Of a DNA stretch of 38,390 nucleotides, positions 24,561 through 29,831 are shown in pieces (positions within the stretch are counted from its first letter, which is position 1; every line of letters starts with the position of its first letter). The stretch lies in the NCBI GenBank assembly GCA_015067785.1, contig SVLR01000021.1:1-38390 (forward strand). Direction: 5' to 3'. Made by a program: the position numbers and the translations under genes. Source of the DNA: Oscillospiraceae bacterium. GTDB lineage: Bacteria > Bacillota > Clostridia > Oscillospirales > Oscillospiraceae. The notes under the pieces are model-generated. The model saw only the letters and a program-made list of their open reading frames with translations. It had not been told where the DNA came from and ran no database searches.

Positions 24561-25373
24561 ATGAGAAACGAGAGAACAGATAGGAATAAAAGGCAGTTTA
24601 CACCCAAGAGACAGTTTACACCTGCTGTGCCGGAGGAAGAAAACGAGGGACAGTTAGAGGGCCGCAATGCGCTCCAGGAGGCGCTGCGCAGCGGCAGGAC
24701 CATCGATAAGGTTTTTATCGCCTCCGGGGAGACAGACCGGGCGCTGCAGCGATTGGCGGCAGAAGCCAAGGAGGCCGGTGCGGTGGTAGTGCCGGTGGAC
24801 CGTCGGAAATTAGATATGATGAGTACCACCCGCGCCCATCAGGGTGTGATCGCACTGGCTGCGGCAAGGGAGTATTTCTCTGTAGACGATATTTTGCAGG
24901 AGGCGGCAGACCGTGGGGAGAATGCGCTGATCATCATCTGCGATGAGCTGACCGATCCCCATAACTTAGGTGCCATCATCCGGACTGCGGAGTGTGCCGG
25001 CGCCCACGGCGTCATTATTCCCAAGCGTCGCAGCGTGGGACTGACGGCTGTGGTGGCAAAGGCATCTGCCGGTGCTATTGAGCATATGAAGGTGGCGCGG
25101 GTCACCAACATCAATGCCACCATCGAGGAATTAAAGGAAAAAGGCGTGTGGGTATTCGGCACAGCTGCCGAAGGCTCTATCCCTATGTACGAAGCGGATC
25201 TGACCGGACCTGCCGCCATTGTGGTTGGCTCTGAGGGCGAGGGTATGAGCCGTCTTGTGCAGAAGAACTGTGATGTGACTGTCCATATTCCCATGAAGGG
25301 GAAGATCACATCCCTCAATGCCTCTGTAGCGGCATCGATCCTGCTATACGAGGCAGTCCGTCAAAGGAGGTAA
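24561..25373 (+). CDS. rlmB: 23S rRNA (guanosine-2'-O-)-methyltransferase, TrmH/SpoU family
   Basis: A SPOUT-class SAM-dependent 2'-O-methyltransferase, most like RlmB, which modifies Gm2251 of 23S rRNA. The 270-residue protein has a short basic N-terminal tail (containing a duplicated RQFTP), the substrate-binding domain (GRNALQEAL, about 33-105), and the catalytic knot. The knot has motif 1 DPHNLGAIIRTAECAG, motif 2 IVVGSEGEGMS and motif 3 IPMKGKITSLNASVA. The downstream membrane protein gene begins 4 bases after the stop and its ribosome binding site lies in the end of this gene, so they form an operon. A tRNA 2'-O-methylase role cannot be excluded. Confidence 0.92.
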   Translation: MRNERTDRNKRQFTPKRQFTPAVPEEENEGQLEGRNALQEALRSGRTIDKVFIASGETDRALQRLAAEAKEAGAVVVPVDRRKLDMMSTTRAHQGVIALAAAREYFSVDDILQEAADRGENALIIICDELTDPHNLGAIIRTAECAGAHGVIIPKRRSVGLTAVVAKASAGAIEHMKVARVTNINATIEELKEKGVWVFGTAAEGSIPMYEADLTGPAAIVVGSEGEGMSRLVQKNCDVTVHIPMKGKITSLNASVAASILLYEAVRQRR

Positions 25374-25376
25374 GCT

Positions 25377-27398
25377 ATGGCTGACAACGAGCAATTCAGT
25401 ATAGATATTGACGATATTCTCCGGGAATTCAGCGAAAAGCCGGTAAAGGAAAAGCTATCTGGCTCCGGTGATAAAATGAAAGATACCATTCCCTTGGAGG
25501 ATGTGACCAAGGTAAGTCAGGAGAAGGCACCTGCTGCACAGGAGGATACCAGGCGGTTTGTGCCGCCCAAGGCATCTGCGGACACCAAGCGGTTTGATGC
25601 TTCGGGTGCATCGGAGGATACCAAGTGGTACGCTCCTGCCCGGGAGACGGAAGGGCCCCGTCGGGTTTCCACTGACCAATGGGAAGAGGAAAACGGAGAT
25701 ACCACCCGCATCCCCAAAAAACAAAAGCCTTCGCCCAAGGTCCTGCGCACATCCTTCCAGATTATGCGCCGCAAGATCGTGGAGGGTCCCGAGCGGCAGT
25801 ATTATGCCCTGCGGGAAAAGGGGATTGCCGGTCTTCGGACGGTGATGCTGCTGAGCTTTGTGATCGCGGTGATCGCCGTTGGTGTTACGGTGCTGTATGC
25901 CAAGGGGCTTGTACCGGAGGATCGGCTGCGGCTGATGATTTTCAGCCAGCTTCTTTTGTTGCTTGTCTCCGCCTTTGTGGGTGCGTTCCAGCTGGTGGAA
26001 GGAATGTTCGATTTGGGAAAACCCCGGTTTACACCGAATACGATGCTGTTTTTCACCTTCATCGCCTGCTTGCTCGACTGCATCTTCTGCCTGAAGATGC
26101 TGCGGGTGCCTGCGACTGCGGTATTTTGCATTCAGGTCTTCATGTCCCTTTGGGGCACCGCGATGCAGCGAAAGACCGATACCTGCCGCACCGATACCCT
26201 TCGGGGCGCGAAAATGCTCTCCGGTATCGGGAAAAAGGCAGCTTACGACGGCGACCGTACCGGCTTTATCCGCTGCGACGGCGATGTGGATGATTTTATG
26301 AATTCCTACGGTGAGTACAGCACACCGGAAAAGGTGCAGGGCATCTACTGTCTGATCGCCTTGATCCTCTCTGTGAGCATTGCCGGTGTGACGGTGGCGC
26401 TCCATGATCTTGCTTTGGCTGTTCAGGTATTTGCTGCGGCAATGCTGGTATCCATGCCTGCGACTATGTTTATTTCTGTAGCGCGACCCGGACAGCTTTT
26501 GGAGAAAAAGCTCTATAAGTTAGGTGTAGTCATCTGCGGCTGGAAGGGCGCGAAGGGACTTGCTTCCAAGGCGCTGTTCCCCATTACGGAGAGGGATCTC
26601 TTCCCCGAGGGAACGGTAAGGCTCAACGGTGTGAAGTTCTACGGCGAGGAGGCCCCTGCCAAGGTCATCGGCTATGCCGCTGCTGTGGCAAAGCGGGAGG
26701 ACGGAAGCCTCGGACCTTTGCTGGATGCGCTGAAGGACAGCTACAATGGGGAGTCCTGCGAGATCGAAAGCTACAAGGCCTATGACGGCGGTATCGGCGG
26801 CGGTGTTGCAGGAACGGTGGTACTGATCGGTACCATCCCGATGCTCAAGGCCTTCCGTGTTCAGGTACCGGAGGATGTCCGTCTGCCCGGCGGTATCGGC
26901 ATCGCTCTGGATGGGAAGTTCTCCTGCCTGCTGGCAGTGCAGTATGAGAAAAACCGGATGGTCTCCCACGGTCTGCGGGTGCTGACTGCCAGCCGCCGTG
27001 TGAAGCCGGTGCTGGTCACCGAGGATTTTGTCCTGAACGGTTCCTTCCTACAGACCAAGTTCGGCATCCATCCCAAGAAGATGCGCCGTCCGGAGCCGGA
27101 GGACAGAGAGCGTCTGCGGCAGCTGACCCCGGAGGAAGGGGAGCCGGCGCTGGCACTGTGTGTCCGTCCCTCACTGCCTGCCTACGGCTATGCCATTTCC
27201 GGCGGCAGAGCTTACTGTCACGCGGTCAGCCTCGGTGTGGTCATCCACATTTTAGGCGGCGCGCTGGGTCTTGCGGCAATGCTTGCACTGTCGCTGCTGG
27301 GGCGTACCGACCTTTTGACGCCGCTGAACATTTTGCTCTATCAGGCAATTTGGCTGATCCCCGGCTTCCTCATTACCGAGTGGACGAGAACACTATGA
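25377..27398 (+). CDS. Membrane protein with the layout of a P-type ATPase but lacking catalytic motifs (pseudo-P-type ATPase)
   Basis: I do not know a name for this 673-residue protein. Residues 1-120 are hydrophilic and probably disordered, with four DT-containing repeats (DTRRF, DTKRF, DTKWY, DTTRI). Hydrophobic helix pairs lie near 153-205, 222-258 and 322-366. Then MPATMFISVARPGQLLEKKL and LGVVICGWKG resemble the segment of P1B ATPases around the membrane CPx motif and its cytoplasmic continuation. The next block should hold DKTGT, but reads ALFPITERDLFPEGTV. Residues ~465-525 (YDGGIGGGVAGTVVLIG and ALDGKFSCLLAV) look like the nucleotide-binding domain. The phosphorylation-domain motifs TGD and GDGxND are also missing. 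Two terminal helices complete the fold. It is inferred to be catalytically dead, possibly a regulatory or scaffolding relative. It is encoded 4 bases after rlmB. Confidence 0.72.
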   Translation: MADNEQFSIDIDDILREFSEKPVKEKLSGSGDKMKDTIPLEDVTKVSQEKAPAAQEDTRRFVPPKASADTKRFDASGASEDTKWYAPARETEGPRRVSTDQWEEENGDTTRIPKKQKPSPKVLRTSFQIMRRKIVEGPERQYYALREKGIAGLRTVMLLSFVIAVIAVGVTVLYAKGLVPEDRLRLMIFSQLLLLLVSAFVGAFQLVEGMFDLGKPRFTPNTMLFFTFIACLLDCIFCLKMLRVPATAVFCIQVFMSLWGTAMQRKTDTCRTDTLRGAKMLSGIGKKAAYDGDRTGFIRCDGDVDDFMNSYGEYSTPEKVQGIYCLIALILSVSIAGVTVALHDLALAVQVFAAAMLVSMPATMFISVARPGQLLEKKLYKLGVVICGWKGAKGLASKALFPITERDLFPEGTVRLNGVKFYGEEAPAKVIGYAAAVAKREDGSLGPLLDALKDSYNGESCEIESYKAYDGGIGGGVAGTVVLIGTIPMLKAFRVQVPEDVRLPGGIGIALDGKFSCLLAVQYEKNRMVSHGLRVLTASRRVKPVLVTEDFVLNGSFLQTKFGIHPKKMRRPEPEDRERLRQLTPEEGEPALALCVRPSLPAYGYAISGGRAYCHAVSLGVVIHILGGALGLAAMLALSLLGRTDLLTPLNILLYQAIWLIPGFLITEWTRTL

Positions 27399-27426
27399 AA
27401 AAGACCGCCTGCGGGCGGTCTTTTTT
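27398..27426 (+). terminator. Terminator of the rlmB-membrane protein operon
   Basis: GACCGCC (27403-27409) pairs with GGCGGTC (27414-27420), preceded by A's and followed by TTTTTT. Confidence 0.92.
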
Positions 27427-27429
27427 AGT

Positions 27430-27581
27430 GAAGAGAGAAGAGAGAAGAGAGAAGAGGGAAGAGTTAAGGTGTCCGCAAGCGGACGGATTTTAATTGTAGG
27501 GGCGGGCATTGCCCGTCCGCAAAAGCCGCAAGATTACAGGGTGTCGTAGGTGCGGTAGGGGCGACCGATGGTCGCCCCTAC
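27430..27581. repeat. Mosaic repeat element starting with GAAGAGA heptamers (element C)
   Basis: Five tandem 7-base units of GAAGAGA type (27430-27464) are followed by AAGGTGTCCGC-AA-GCGGAC (shared with element B at 22249). Then come a GGGCGGGCATTGCCCGTCC hairpin and a perfect 12-bp hairpin GTAGGGGCGACC/GGTCGCCCCTAC (27555-27581). Bases 27582-27685 show nothing recognisable before the promoter of the next gene. Confidence 0.8.
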
Positions 27582-27764: not shown

Positions 27765-29831
27765 ATGCACACTGCTAACTCAATTCGCAACATCTGCTTG
27801 CTGGGCCATAGCGGCAGCGGCAAGTCTGCACTGGCTGAAAGCTTACTTTATATGACCGGCGCCATCGACCGCATCGGCAAGAATGCGGACGGCAATACGG
27901 TTTGTGATTTTGACCCCGAGGAGATCCGCCGTCATATTTCCATCTCCACCTCTGTAGTTCCTCTCGACTACAAGAACGTGCGTATCAATGTACTGGACAC
28001 CCCCGGTGCCTTTGACTTTGCCGGCGCTACCGTGGAAGCCCTCCGGGCAGCGGACGCAGCGATCTTGGTCATCTCTGCCAAGGACGGCATCACTGTTGGC
28101 TTCGAGAAGGCTTGGAAATACTGCCAGGAGCGCAATATGCCCCGCTTCATTTACATCTCCAAGGTAGACGAGGACAACTCTGATTACAACGCTACCTTCG
28201 AAGCCCTGCGTGAGAAGTACGGCAATAAGATCGCGCCTATCGTCGTTCCCATTTGGGACGGCAACCGTAAGGTCACCGGCATTATCGATGTGCTCAATAA
28301 GCGTGCCTATGAGATGCAGAATCTGAAGCGGGTAGAGATCGCTGTTCCCGAGGGCAAGGAAGAGGTTATTTCTGACTTTAACTATGCCCTGATGGAAGCC
28401 GTTGCGGAAACTGACGAGGAGCTGATGGACAAGTTCTTCAATGAGGAGCCCTTTACTTATGCGGAAATGATCAAGGGTCTGCATCAGGGCGTTAAGGACC
28501 TGAGTATGTTCCCTGTACTCTGCGGCTCCGGTGTTACCTGCCTTGGCAGCCTGATGCTGATGGATCACATCATCGACCTGCTGCCCAACCCCGTGGAAGG
28601 CAACTATCACAAGGCAACCACCGCTGACGGCACCACCGAGGAATTCGTGGTTTCTCCCGGCGGCGTGCCCTCCGCATTCGTTTGGAAGACCGTTTCCGAT
28701 CAGTACGGCAAGTACTCCTTCATCAAAGTTCTCTCCGGCACCATTACCTCCGATACTGCGCTGGTCAATGCCCGTACCGGTGAGACCGAAAAGCTGGGCC
28801 GTCTCTACTCTATGTGCGGCAAAAAGGCTACCGAAGTTAAGGAGCTTTCCTGCGGTGATATCGGCGCCATCGGCAAGATGGATAAGGTAAAGACCGGCGA
28901 TACCCTGTGCGATGCCCGCAAGGTCGTTTCCCTTAAGGGTCTGCCTTATGCACCTGCCTGCTACTCCATGGCAATCTCTCCCAAAACGAAGGGTCAGGAG
29001 GATAAGGTCGCTGCAGGCCTGCACAGACTGAACGAAGAAGATCCTTCCTTCTATGTTGTCAACAATGCGGAGACCAAGCAGGTCGTCGTCTCCGGTGCCG
29101 GTGATCAGCACTTAGATGTACTGGTTGCAAAGCTCAAGAGCCGCTTCGGTGTGGATGCTGTTCTGGATACTGCTAAGGTGGCTTACCGCGAGAAGATCAA
29201 GAAGACTGTTCAGGCCCATGGCCGTCATAAGAAGCAGACCGGCGGTTCCGGTCAGTTCGGTGATGTTTGGGTCCGCTTCGAGCCCCAGGAGGAGCAGGAT
29301 GAGATGATCTTCGCAGAGGAGGTCTTCGGTGGCTCCGTTCCCAAGAACTTCTACCCCGCTGTTGAAAAGGGTATTCAGGAGGCAGTTCAGAAGGGCCCGC
29401 TGGCAGGCTATCCTATGGTCGGATTGAAGGCGGTTCTGTACGATGGCTCCTACCACCCCGTTGACTCCAACGAAATGGCATTTAAGCTGGCTGCGATCCT
29501 TGCCTTCAAGGAAGCAATGCCCAATGCCGCTCCTACGCTGCTGGAGCCCATCGGCTCTCTGGCGGTTACCGTTCCCGAAGCCTATGTTGGCGATGTAATG
29601 GGTGACCTGAGTAAGCGCCGCGGCCGTCCTATGGGTATGAATCCCGATGCCGACGGCAATACCGTTGTGGAAGCAGAAGTGCCTATGGCCGAGATGGGCA
29701 GCTATGCTATCGACCTGCGCGCAATGACCCAGGCTCGCGGCTCCTTTACCCTTGAGTTCGTCCGCTATGAGGAAGTACCCAAGGCAAATCAGCAGAAGAT
29801 CATTGACGATGCCAAGAAGGACGAGGAGTAA
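27765..29831 (+). CDS. Elongation factor G-like GTPase (EF-G paralogue)
   Basis: A 688-residue protein with full EF-G domain order: G domain (1-~270), domain II, domain III, domain IV (AHGRHKKQTGGSGQFGDVW) and a C-terminal domain V. The G motifs are GHSGSGKS (14-21), DTPGAFDF (78-85) and SKVD (~133-136). Canonical EF-G has His at the DTPGH position, and here it is Ala82; the P-loop also has GSGKS instead of DHGKT or DAGKT. Both changes are typical of the EF-G-like paralogue group (FusA2 type) rather than of the housekeeping translocase. GTP hydrolysis should therefore be slow or differently triggered, and the cellular role of this group is not settled. It is transcribed alone, with its own promoter and terminator. 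The true fusA is not in the window. Confidence 0.9.
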   Translation: MHTANSIRNICLLGHSGSGKSALAESLLYMTGAIDRIGKNADGNTVCDFDPEEIRRHISISTSVVPLDYKNVRINVLDTPGAFDFAGATVEALRAADAAILVISAKDGITVGFEKAWKYCQERNMPRFIYISKVDEDNSDYNATFEALREKYGNKIAPIVVPIWDGNRKVTGIIDVLNKRAYEMQNLKRVEIAVPEGKEEVISDFNYALMEAVAETDEELMDKFFNEEPFTYAEMIKGLHQGVKDLSMFPVLCGSGVTCLGSLMLMDHIIDLLPNPVEGNYHKATTADGTTEEFVVSPGGVPSAFVWKTVSDQYGKYSFIKVLSGTITSDTALVNARTGETEKLGRLYSMCGKKATEVKELSCGDIGAIGKMDKVKTGDTLCDARKVVSLKGLPYAPACYSMAISPKTKGQEDKVAAGLHRLNEEDPSFYVVNNAETKQVVVSGAGDQHLDVLVAKLKSRFGVDAVLDTAKVAYREKIKKTVQAHGRHKKQTGGSGQFGDVWVRFEPQEEQDEMIFAEEVFGGSVPKNFYPAVEKGIQEAVQKGPLAGYPMVGLKAVLYDGSYHPVDSNEMAFKLAAILAFKEAMPNAAPTLLEPIGSLAVTVPEAYVGDVMGDLSKRRGRPMGMNPDADGNTVVEAEVPMAEMGSYAIDLRAMTQARGSFTLEFVRYEEVPKANQQKIIDDAKKDEE

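Follow-up and report, generated by a model that had tools for sequence, protein, structure and literature searches.

A predicted P1B-ATPase-derived pseudoenzyme encoded directly downstream of rlmB in an Oscillospiraceae bacterium and its relatives

The 38,390-nt stretch of DNA analysed here (the window; contig SVLR01000021.1 of assembly GCA_015067785.1, from an Oscillospiraceae bacterium) encodes, at 25377..27398 on the + strand, a membrane protein with the predicted fold of the P1B-type metal pumps, whose catalytic motifs it lacks. The frame of this protein, hereafter the pseudo-pump, begins with ATG and runs intact over 673 codons. Its P1B-pump fold, as judged from structure models, and the loss of the catalytic motifs, as judged from alignments, are both well supported. 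The protein thus appears to belong to a P1B-derived pseudoenzyme family, in which the enzyme fold is kept by selection while the catalytic residues have been lost, its inactivity being deduced from the missing motifs; going by these motifs, it falls outside the P1B pumps as an active class. The explanation that we favour, and to which we attach an even chance, is that the pseudo-pump is a membrane-anchored scaffold composed of a P1B-like dead core and a likely cytosolic N-terminal tail, which may be phosphorylated by the cell's PASTA-type kinase.

The original prediction, made from the letters of the window and their translations, had described the layout of a heavy-metal P-type ATPase, and structure prediction, fold search and profile search all agreed with this description. 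The AlphaFold2 model of the window protein had a confident core whose best matches in the PDB were P1B metal pumps, and such pumps were again the best matches when a distant relative was modelled. The predicted fold spans residues 143-673. Its eight helices follow one another as MA MB M1 M2, M3 M4, M5 M6, and the predicted M4-M5 loop holds the P and N domains. Helices 1-4 (residues 151-175, 181-201, 220-241 and 247-270; 25827..26186, +), of which the fourth was delimited by hand, correspond to MA, MB, M1 and M2. The last two helices, M5 and M6, are encoded at 27210..27392 (+) and include W659, which occurs in at least 90% of the order-wide members.

Homologues were compared in two sets with eight members in common, namely 79 close members (A1), taken from 120 listed homologues among the 380 found, and 47 order-wide members (A3). 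The latter set omits L123, where a stop divides the gene into two open reading frames (ORFs), and includes L128, which is cut at a contig end; L013, whose longest ORF lies on the wrong strand, was left out of the seed hidden Markov model (HMM). When the order-wide profile was aligned by hhalign with a profile built from 20 pumps that carry CPC, taken from the window's genome and related genomes, the match had a probability of 99.8% (E 6e-30) over 468 columns (140-640), while the close members alone gave a shorter and weaker alignment (96.6%, E 4.9e-10, 231 columns). The family HMM also matched the two CPC pumps of the window's own genome, at 44 and 56 bits. A search of Pfam and NCBIfam with the window protein gave nothing beyond chance-level scores (Jagunal, E 0.62; rnfE, E 0.0079, residues 472-509), the P-type families PF00122 and PF00702 did not match it and gave a weak PF00702 hit (E 0.0024) in one of 40 members, and a sequence search of the PDB found nothing significant. 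The Pfam metal-binding (HMA) domain was found neither in the window protein nor in the 40 members scanned. Pfam and NCBIfam give the family no name, and the few names in the source records read 'hypothetical protein'. A precomputed PF02095 assignment accompanies P0101, which is among the 120 homologues listed.

CPC, DKTGT, TGES, GDGxND and S-x-H-P are motifs of P1B pumps, and they were also seen in the pumps fetched for comparison. At the matching places, DKTGT or DKTGS, TGES, GDGxND and CPC occurred in none of the 79 close and none of the 47 order-wide members, and one DKTGS lies elsewhere, at residue 193 in the disordered tail of L124. CPC was absent from the whole length of every protein in both sets, and inspection by eye of the 47 order-wide M4 slices revealed no CPC, SPC, CPH or TPC triplet. 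In the profile-profile alignment, part of helix 6 (M4; 26430..26480, +) reads SMPA where the genome's own P1B pump has SCPC, so that MPA (residues 360-362) aligns with CPC, as had been proposed from a MPATMF segment; P361 is found in 79/79 close and 34/47 order-wide members. No potential metal-binding residue in the helices is invariant among the order-wide members. The place of DKTGTLT is occupied by ITERDLFPEG (residues 403-412; 26583..26612, +), according to the profile-profile alignment and the counts among members.

The TGES and GDGxND stretches of the pumps fall in alignment gaps. At the place of the actuator domain, the model and alignment leave a remnant loop with two predicted strands and no TGES (residues 277-315; 26205..26321, +), and the length of this region is 38-39 residues in the close and 33-68 in the order-wide members. 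The loss of most of the actuator domain together with that of the GDGxND loop goes beyond the original prediction, which had listed DKTGT, TGD and GDGxND as absent. DKTGT and GDGxND are indeed gone, in the window protein as in the aligned homologues; of TGD, only T-G has changed. The segment EDF stands at that place (27021..27029, +; profile-profile alignment), and its Asp, D550, is kept in 79/79 close and 46/47 order-wide members. The G-rich segment noticed earlier lies in an N-domain-like part (residues 412-524; 26610..26948, +), as had been anticipated, and this part contains GGIGGG and VLIG; G472 and G485 within it are invariant in the order-wide set (47/47). In the window protein, Gly takes the place of the His found in the S-x-H-P segment of the pumps. 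At the former place of the phosphorylated Asp, position 405 is Asp in 31/47 order-wide and 19/79 close members and Glu in the window protein, and at position 407 the 47 order-wide members include 32 with Asp and 11 with Glu, while D407 is present in 78/79 close members. A DxD-like pair is thus kept at this place in many distant members and partly lost in most of the window's clade. Since no phospho-Asp, dephosphorylation loop, Mg2+ loop or metal site is left, and the nucleotide site has lost its His, the pseudo-pump very probably neither hydrolyses ATP nor transports.

The gene appears to be maintained by selection. Compared with its copy in L027, a relative with 71% identity, the pseudo-pump gene showed 0.20 nonsynonymous (dN) and 1.04 synonymous (dS) substitutions per site (dN/dS ca. 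0.2), and the corresponding values for rlmB were 0.04 and 0.82; the pseudo-pump gene evolves faster than rlmB, yet under constraint. Scoring of 7995 candidates yielded the 380 homologues at E<=1e-3. The claim that the intact 673-codon frame is not decaying was confirmed by this constraint and by the many homologues. A strong profile match was present in 325 of the 345 genomes of the window's order, where strong means E < 1e-60, a cut chosen after a gap had been seen between the weakest match counted (6.6e-67) and the strongest in an outside genome (2.0e-39). Twenty order genomes fell below this cut (one of them, G530, at 1.4e-44), and 13 of these are less than 80% complete; because four others (G561, G063, G090 and G104) are listed as at least 97% complete, some true absences are likely. 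In a sample of the class, all 12 order genomes and none of 279 others gave a strong match. The best score outside the order was 134 bits, limited to the P and N domains, and the four top outside matches examined all had DKTGT, TGES, GDGIND and CPC. A sample of the phylum gave strong matches in 3/3 order genomes and 0/296 others (best 131 bits); seven of the outside genomes are common to the two samples, and in the order, class and phylum searches no more than the two or three best candidates from each genome were scored. The 80 named loci used below are all from metagenome-assembled genomes and mostly labelled Oscillospiraceae (a family that includes Faecousia), and from these labels we read the sampled order as Oscillospirales.

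A few members carry a single in-frame stop (TGA, TAG or TAA) within the stretch matched, namely those of G022 (L123), G060, G075, G115, G562 and G626. The L123 gene is split into ORFs of 363 and 430 aa, for which recent decay, sequencing error and recoding are candidates.

The gene directly upstream, rlmB (24561..25373, +; 270 aa), encodes by family a 23S rRNA G2251 2'-O-methyltransferase (TIGR00186, 253 bits against a cut-off of 160). Only 3 bp separate its stop from the pseudo-pump ATG, a Shine-Dalgarno-like AAAGGAGG (25363..25370, +) could be read within the last rlmB codons, 6 nt ahead of this ATG, and a terminator-like hairpin with a U run (27396..27427, +) overlaps the pseudo-pump stop codon. 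The hairpin had a folding energy of -23.3 kcal/mol (z -6.6), and a terminator consensus scan did not list it. On account of the spacing, AAAGGAGG inside rlmB and the hairpin, the two genes appear to form an operon-like two-gene unit, as had been suggested earlier, and would share a transcript.

The pairing recurs among relatives, in line with the expectation that the neighbourhood would be conserved. Of 80 named loci compared by tblastn, a set drawn from 139 relatives found, 76 had rlmB immediately upstream and on the same strand; in two of the others it lay upstream at a shifted estimated position (gaps of 381 and -139), and in two the contig starts inside the gene. These counts were used in place of an ORF-based neighbour table, which had found the pseudo-pump in only 69/81 sequences. 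Across the families of the order, rlmB was upstream on the same strand in 37/40 loci, with estimated gaps of -102 to 186; this count is used here in place of an earlier 35/40. Among the exceptions, rlmB precedes the split gene in L123, the start of L128 coincides with a contig end, and no rlmB is present in 6.5 kb at L106. Apart from rlmB, no neighbour was common to more than 8 of these 40 loci.

Because the membrane-held P/N head persists and most members read have a docking tail, a scaffold or docking role was considered, and we judge it about equally likely to be right or wrong. The original prediction had raised the possibility of a non-pumping membrane regulator or scaffold, and the predicted fold and the lost catalysis give this idea good support in part, the scaffold role itself being deduced. 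The mechanism would be as described below. The dead pump core would serve as the membrane anchor, soluble partners would be recruited by the N-terminal motif and by the D-T-x-x-hydrophobic sites of the tail, and phosphorylation of the tail may alter the choice of partner. That a PrkC-type kinase uses the tail threonines as a switch is possible but seems less probable than the docking role, and a target in the maturation of the ribosome (50S), proposed because of the rlmB pairing, is more tentative still.

The tail (residues 1-125; 25377..25751, +) is mostly predicted to be disordered, with low pLDDT (predicted local distance difference test) values over most of residues 1-110. The topology of P1B pumps places this side of the membrane in the cytosol, and by this analogy the tail is likely to be cytosolic, where a PASTA kinase acts. 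It contains a conserved motif, DIDDILREF (residues 10-18; 25404..25430, +), which was modelled with modest confidence as a helix over residues 11-18. Motifs of this type occurred in 77/79 close and 28/47 order-wide members, compared with 1.2 and 0.4 in shuffles. A DNA pattern search of the window's genome for [DE]DI[hydrophobic]xEF found only the pseudo-pump gene, a weak result given the strict pattern and the incomplete assembly. The tail also has five D-T-x-x-hydrophobic sites (T37, T58, T70, T82 and T109) in its 125 residues where ca. 0.4 would be expected, a number reached in 0/20000 shuffles. In the close set, [D/E]-T-x-x-hydrophobic sites numbered 224 against 39.7 expected from shuffles and occurred in 71/79 members, while the Ser form was below chance (9 versus 26.4) and controls with +4 spacing or a basic residue at -1 were at chance. 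Kinship would less easily explain why sites recur within single proteins and why, among the close members, the pattern is confined to Thr. The tails of P0036, P0039 and P0063 are repeat arrays (e.g. DTTVLP or DTQVLP) with up to five to seven sites. In a study of PknA (PMC7164672), PknA-dependent Thr sites are reported to have an acidic residue at -1 and Leu or Val at +3; the tail resembles this set of PASTA-type kinase substrates in its D-T-x-x-hydrophobic sites, here in a disordered and likely cytosolic region. A PASTA kinase is encoded in the window's genome (542 bits).

Several results weigh against this account. The excess of tail sites is overstated, since shuffles ignore kinship. Order-wide, the sites were fewer (62 versus 26.4 expected, in 25/47 members), and the controls exceeded chance as well (+4 spacing, 39 versus 26.2; basic -1, 26 versus 15.1). 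Other proteins of the window also had more sites than their shuffles, namely the rsmF-like protein (3 versus 0.61), FtsH (4 versus 1.82), EF-G (4 versus 1.57) and the murA-like protein (3 versus 1.28); the pepT-like protein, RlmB and the pump core had none, and the excess in every control was below that of the tail. Of the gene labels used, rsmF-like, murA-like, FtsH and EF-G were checked against a library, and ackA and pepT were assigned by eye. In the C. difficile phosphoproteome (PMC9674922), GXT is given as the sole enriched phospho-threonine motif and the kinase-dependent sites have no signature, which differs from the tail sites; phosphorylation of the tail is predicted from the site motif. 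In f10, one family of the order, the tail is absent from the four proteins read (L112, L113, L143 and L145), and nine matches have frames of only 541-564 aa. These members point to a role of the core that does not need the tail, and this counts most against the idea of a kinase switch. A PASTA kinase is retained in each of the 12 f10 genomes searched, and tail and kinase therefore do not go together. To our knowledge, the pseudo-pump has no known partner, phosphosite or phenotype. A search for an FHA reader in the window's own genome, whose assembly is 81.8% complete, found none.

Linking kinase and tail by co-presence was abandoned, as the kinase exceeded the cut-off in 37 of 40 sampled order genomes, f10 included, and so does not discriminate. 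FHA domains were found in 15/40 order genomes (2/12 f10 and 13/28 others), 10 of the 12 f10 genomes searched being without a match. An FHA protein as the partner of the tail was also set aside, the link not being clean: G077 and G143, with six and four tail sites, have no FHA match. In six genomes (G012, G111, G147, G023, G605 and G118), FHA is fused N-terminally to an FtsW/RodA-like (SEDS) protein of ca. 520-610 aa (L193-L196, L198 and L201), the SEDS part being recognised by eye. Such a fusion would act as a wall polymerase with a reader for phospho-threonine. A far-reaching version of the scaffold model, in which the RlmB-paired dead pump with a phospho-Thr tail written by the PASTA kinase and read by FHA couples ribosome maturation to wall growth, is a long shot. 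If true, such a signalling hub would be order-wide, with a PASTA kinase that senses cell-wall fragments and a reader such as the FHA-FtsW/RodA fusion of genus relatives.

Other functions were weighed against a scaffold. The P and N domains could bind nucleotide or Mg2+ without hydrolysis, so that a partner, e.g. the ribosome-maturation machinery, reads the state of a ligand sensor. The invariant G472 and G485, the near-invariant D550 (46/47) and the acidic pair that distant members keep at the DKTGT place (405 Asp in 31/47, 407 Asp or Glu in 43/47) are consistent with such a sensor; however, the S-x-H-P His is Gly in the window protein, the GDGxND Mg2+ loop is gone, and position 405 is Asp in just 19/79 of the window's clade, making this explanation unlikely. 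The same acidic residues allow a HAD-type phosphatase or phosphotransferase that has reverted to a DxD motif, since many distant members have DxDxFP at the DKTGT place. We regard this as very improbable, because the window reads ERD, the first Asp is missing in 60/79 close members, a GDGxND-type motif is missing, and the single weak HAD match noted above (PF00702) was the only one among 40 members.

A passive channel or carrier, with the P1B membrane path kept and the ATP drive lost, would account for the retention of all eight predicted helices and of P361 of M4 in 34/47 order-wide members. We consider it improbable, given that MPA replaces CPC and that the helices have no conserved metal-binding residue order-wide. 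Slightly less probable is a regulatory subunit that pairs through the common fold with a genuine P-type pump in the same cell: four genes of the window's genome do encode an E1-E2 ATPase domain, and two of these carry CPC, but the conserved neighbour is rlmB and others adjoin in at most 8/40 loci, in a comparison that did not search for nearby pumps as such. Finally, the lost motifs and the few relatives with an in-frame stop in the matched stretch might indicate a decaying pseudogene or an annotation artefact, a notion already contradicted for the family by the dN/dS of ca. 0.2 and the strong matches in 325/345 genomes, and one to which we assign a negligible probability. The membrane-anchored scaffold remains the explanation that we favour.

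Downstream of the pseudo-pump, the window encodes an EF-G-like GTPase at 27765-29831 (NF009381, 857 bits). An EF-G homologue lies directly 3' of the pseudo-pump in 8/40 distant loci, and the EF-G gene was dropped as a third member of the unit, as it adjoins in these loci only and the hairpin separates it in the window. The spacer between the two genes contains further hairpins at 27470-27485 and 27555-27581.

A free-standing pump relative that has lost its phosphorylation site, its metal site, the Mg2+ loop and most of the actuator domain is thus kept in 325 of the 345 order genomes, and a transporter fold has likely been reused here for another purpose. The gene is a possible marker for the order, and its constant pairing with rlmB opens a direct way to test whether 50S maturation is connected to the membrane. 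A search of the open-access literature turned up no free-standing dead P-type pump in bacteria, and searches there for rlmB and for signature proteins of the order gave nothing relevant to the pseudo-pump.

Among known systems, the pseudo-pump is most like the P1B-type ATPases (CopA, ATP7B and ZntA; PDB 4bbj, 3rfu, 7si7 and 4umv), with which it shares the predicted fold, the helix order and profile homology. In contrast to them, it has no DKTGT, TGES, GDGxND or CPC and an actuator region of only 33-68 residues, and the window protein lacks the S-x-H-P His and has a disordered tail with no Pfam HMA found. KdpB, the P-type ATPase of KdpFABC, has an active catalytic cycle. Its structures (PDB 7zrh and 9oc4) matched the model more weakly than those of the P1B pumps. 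The nearest precedent seen is the P4-ATPase domain of the apicomplexan guanylyl cyclase PfGC-beta (PMC6592433), in which most signature residues are not identifiable and a degenerate P-type fold is likewise kept in a signalling protein. That domain is eukaryotic, of P4 type and fused to a cyclase, whereas the pseudo-pump is bacterial, of P1B type and free-standing.
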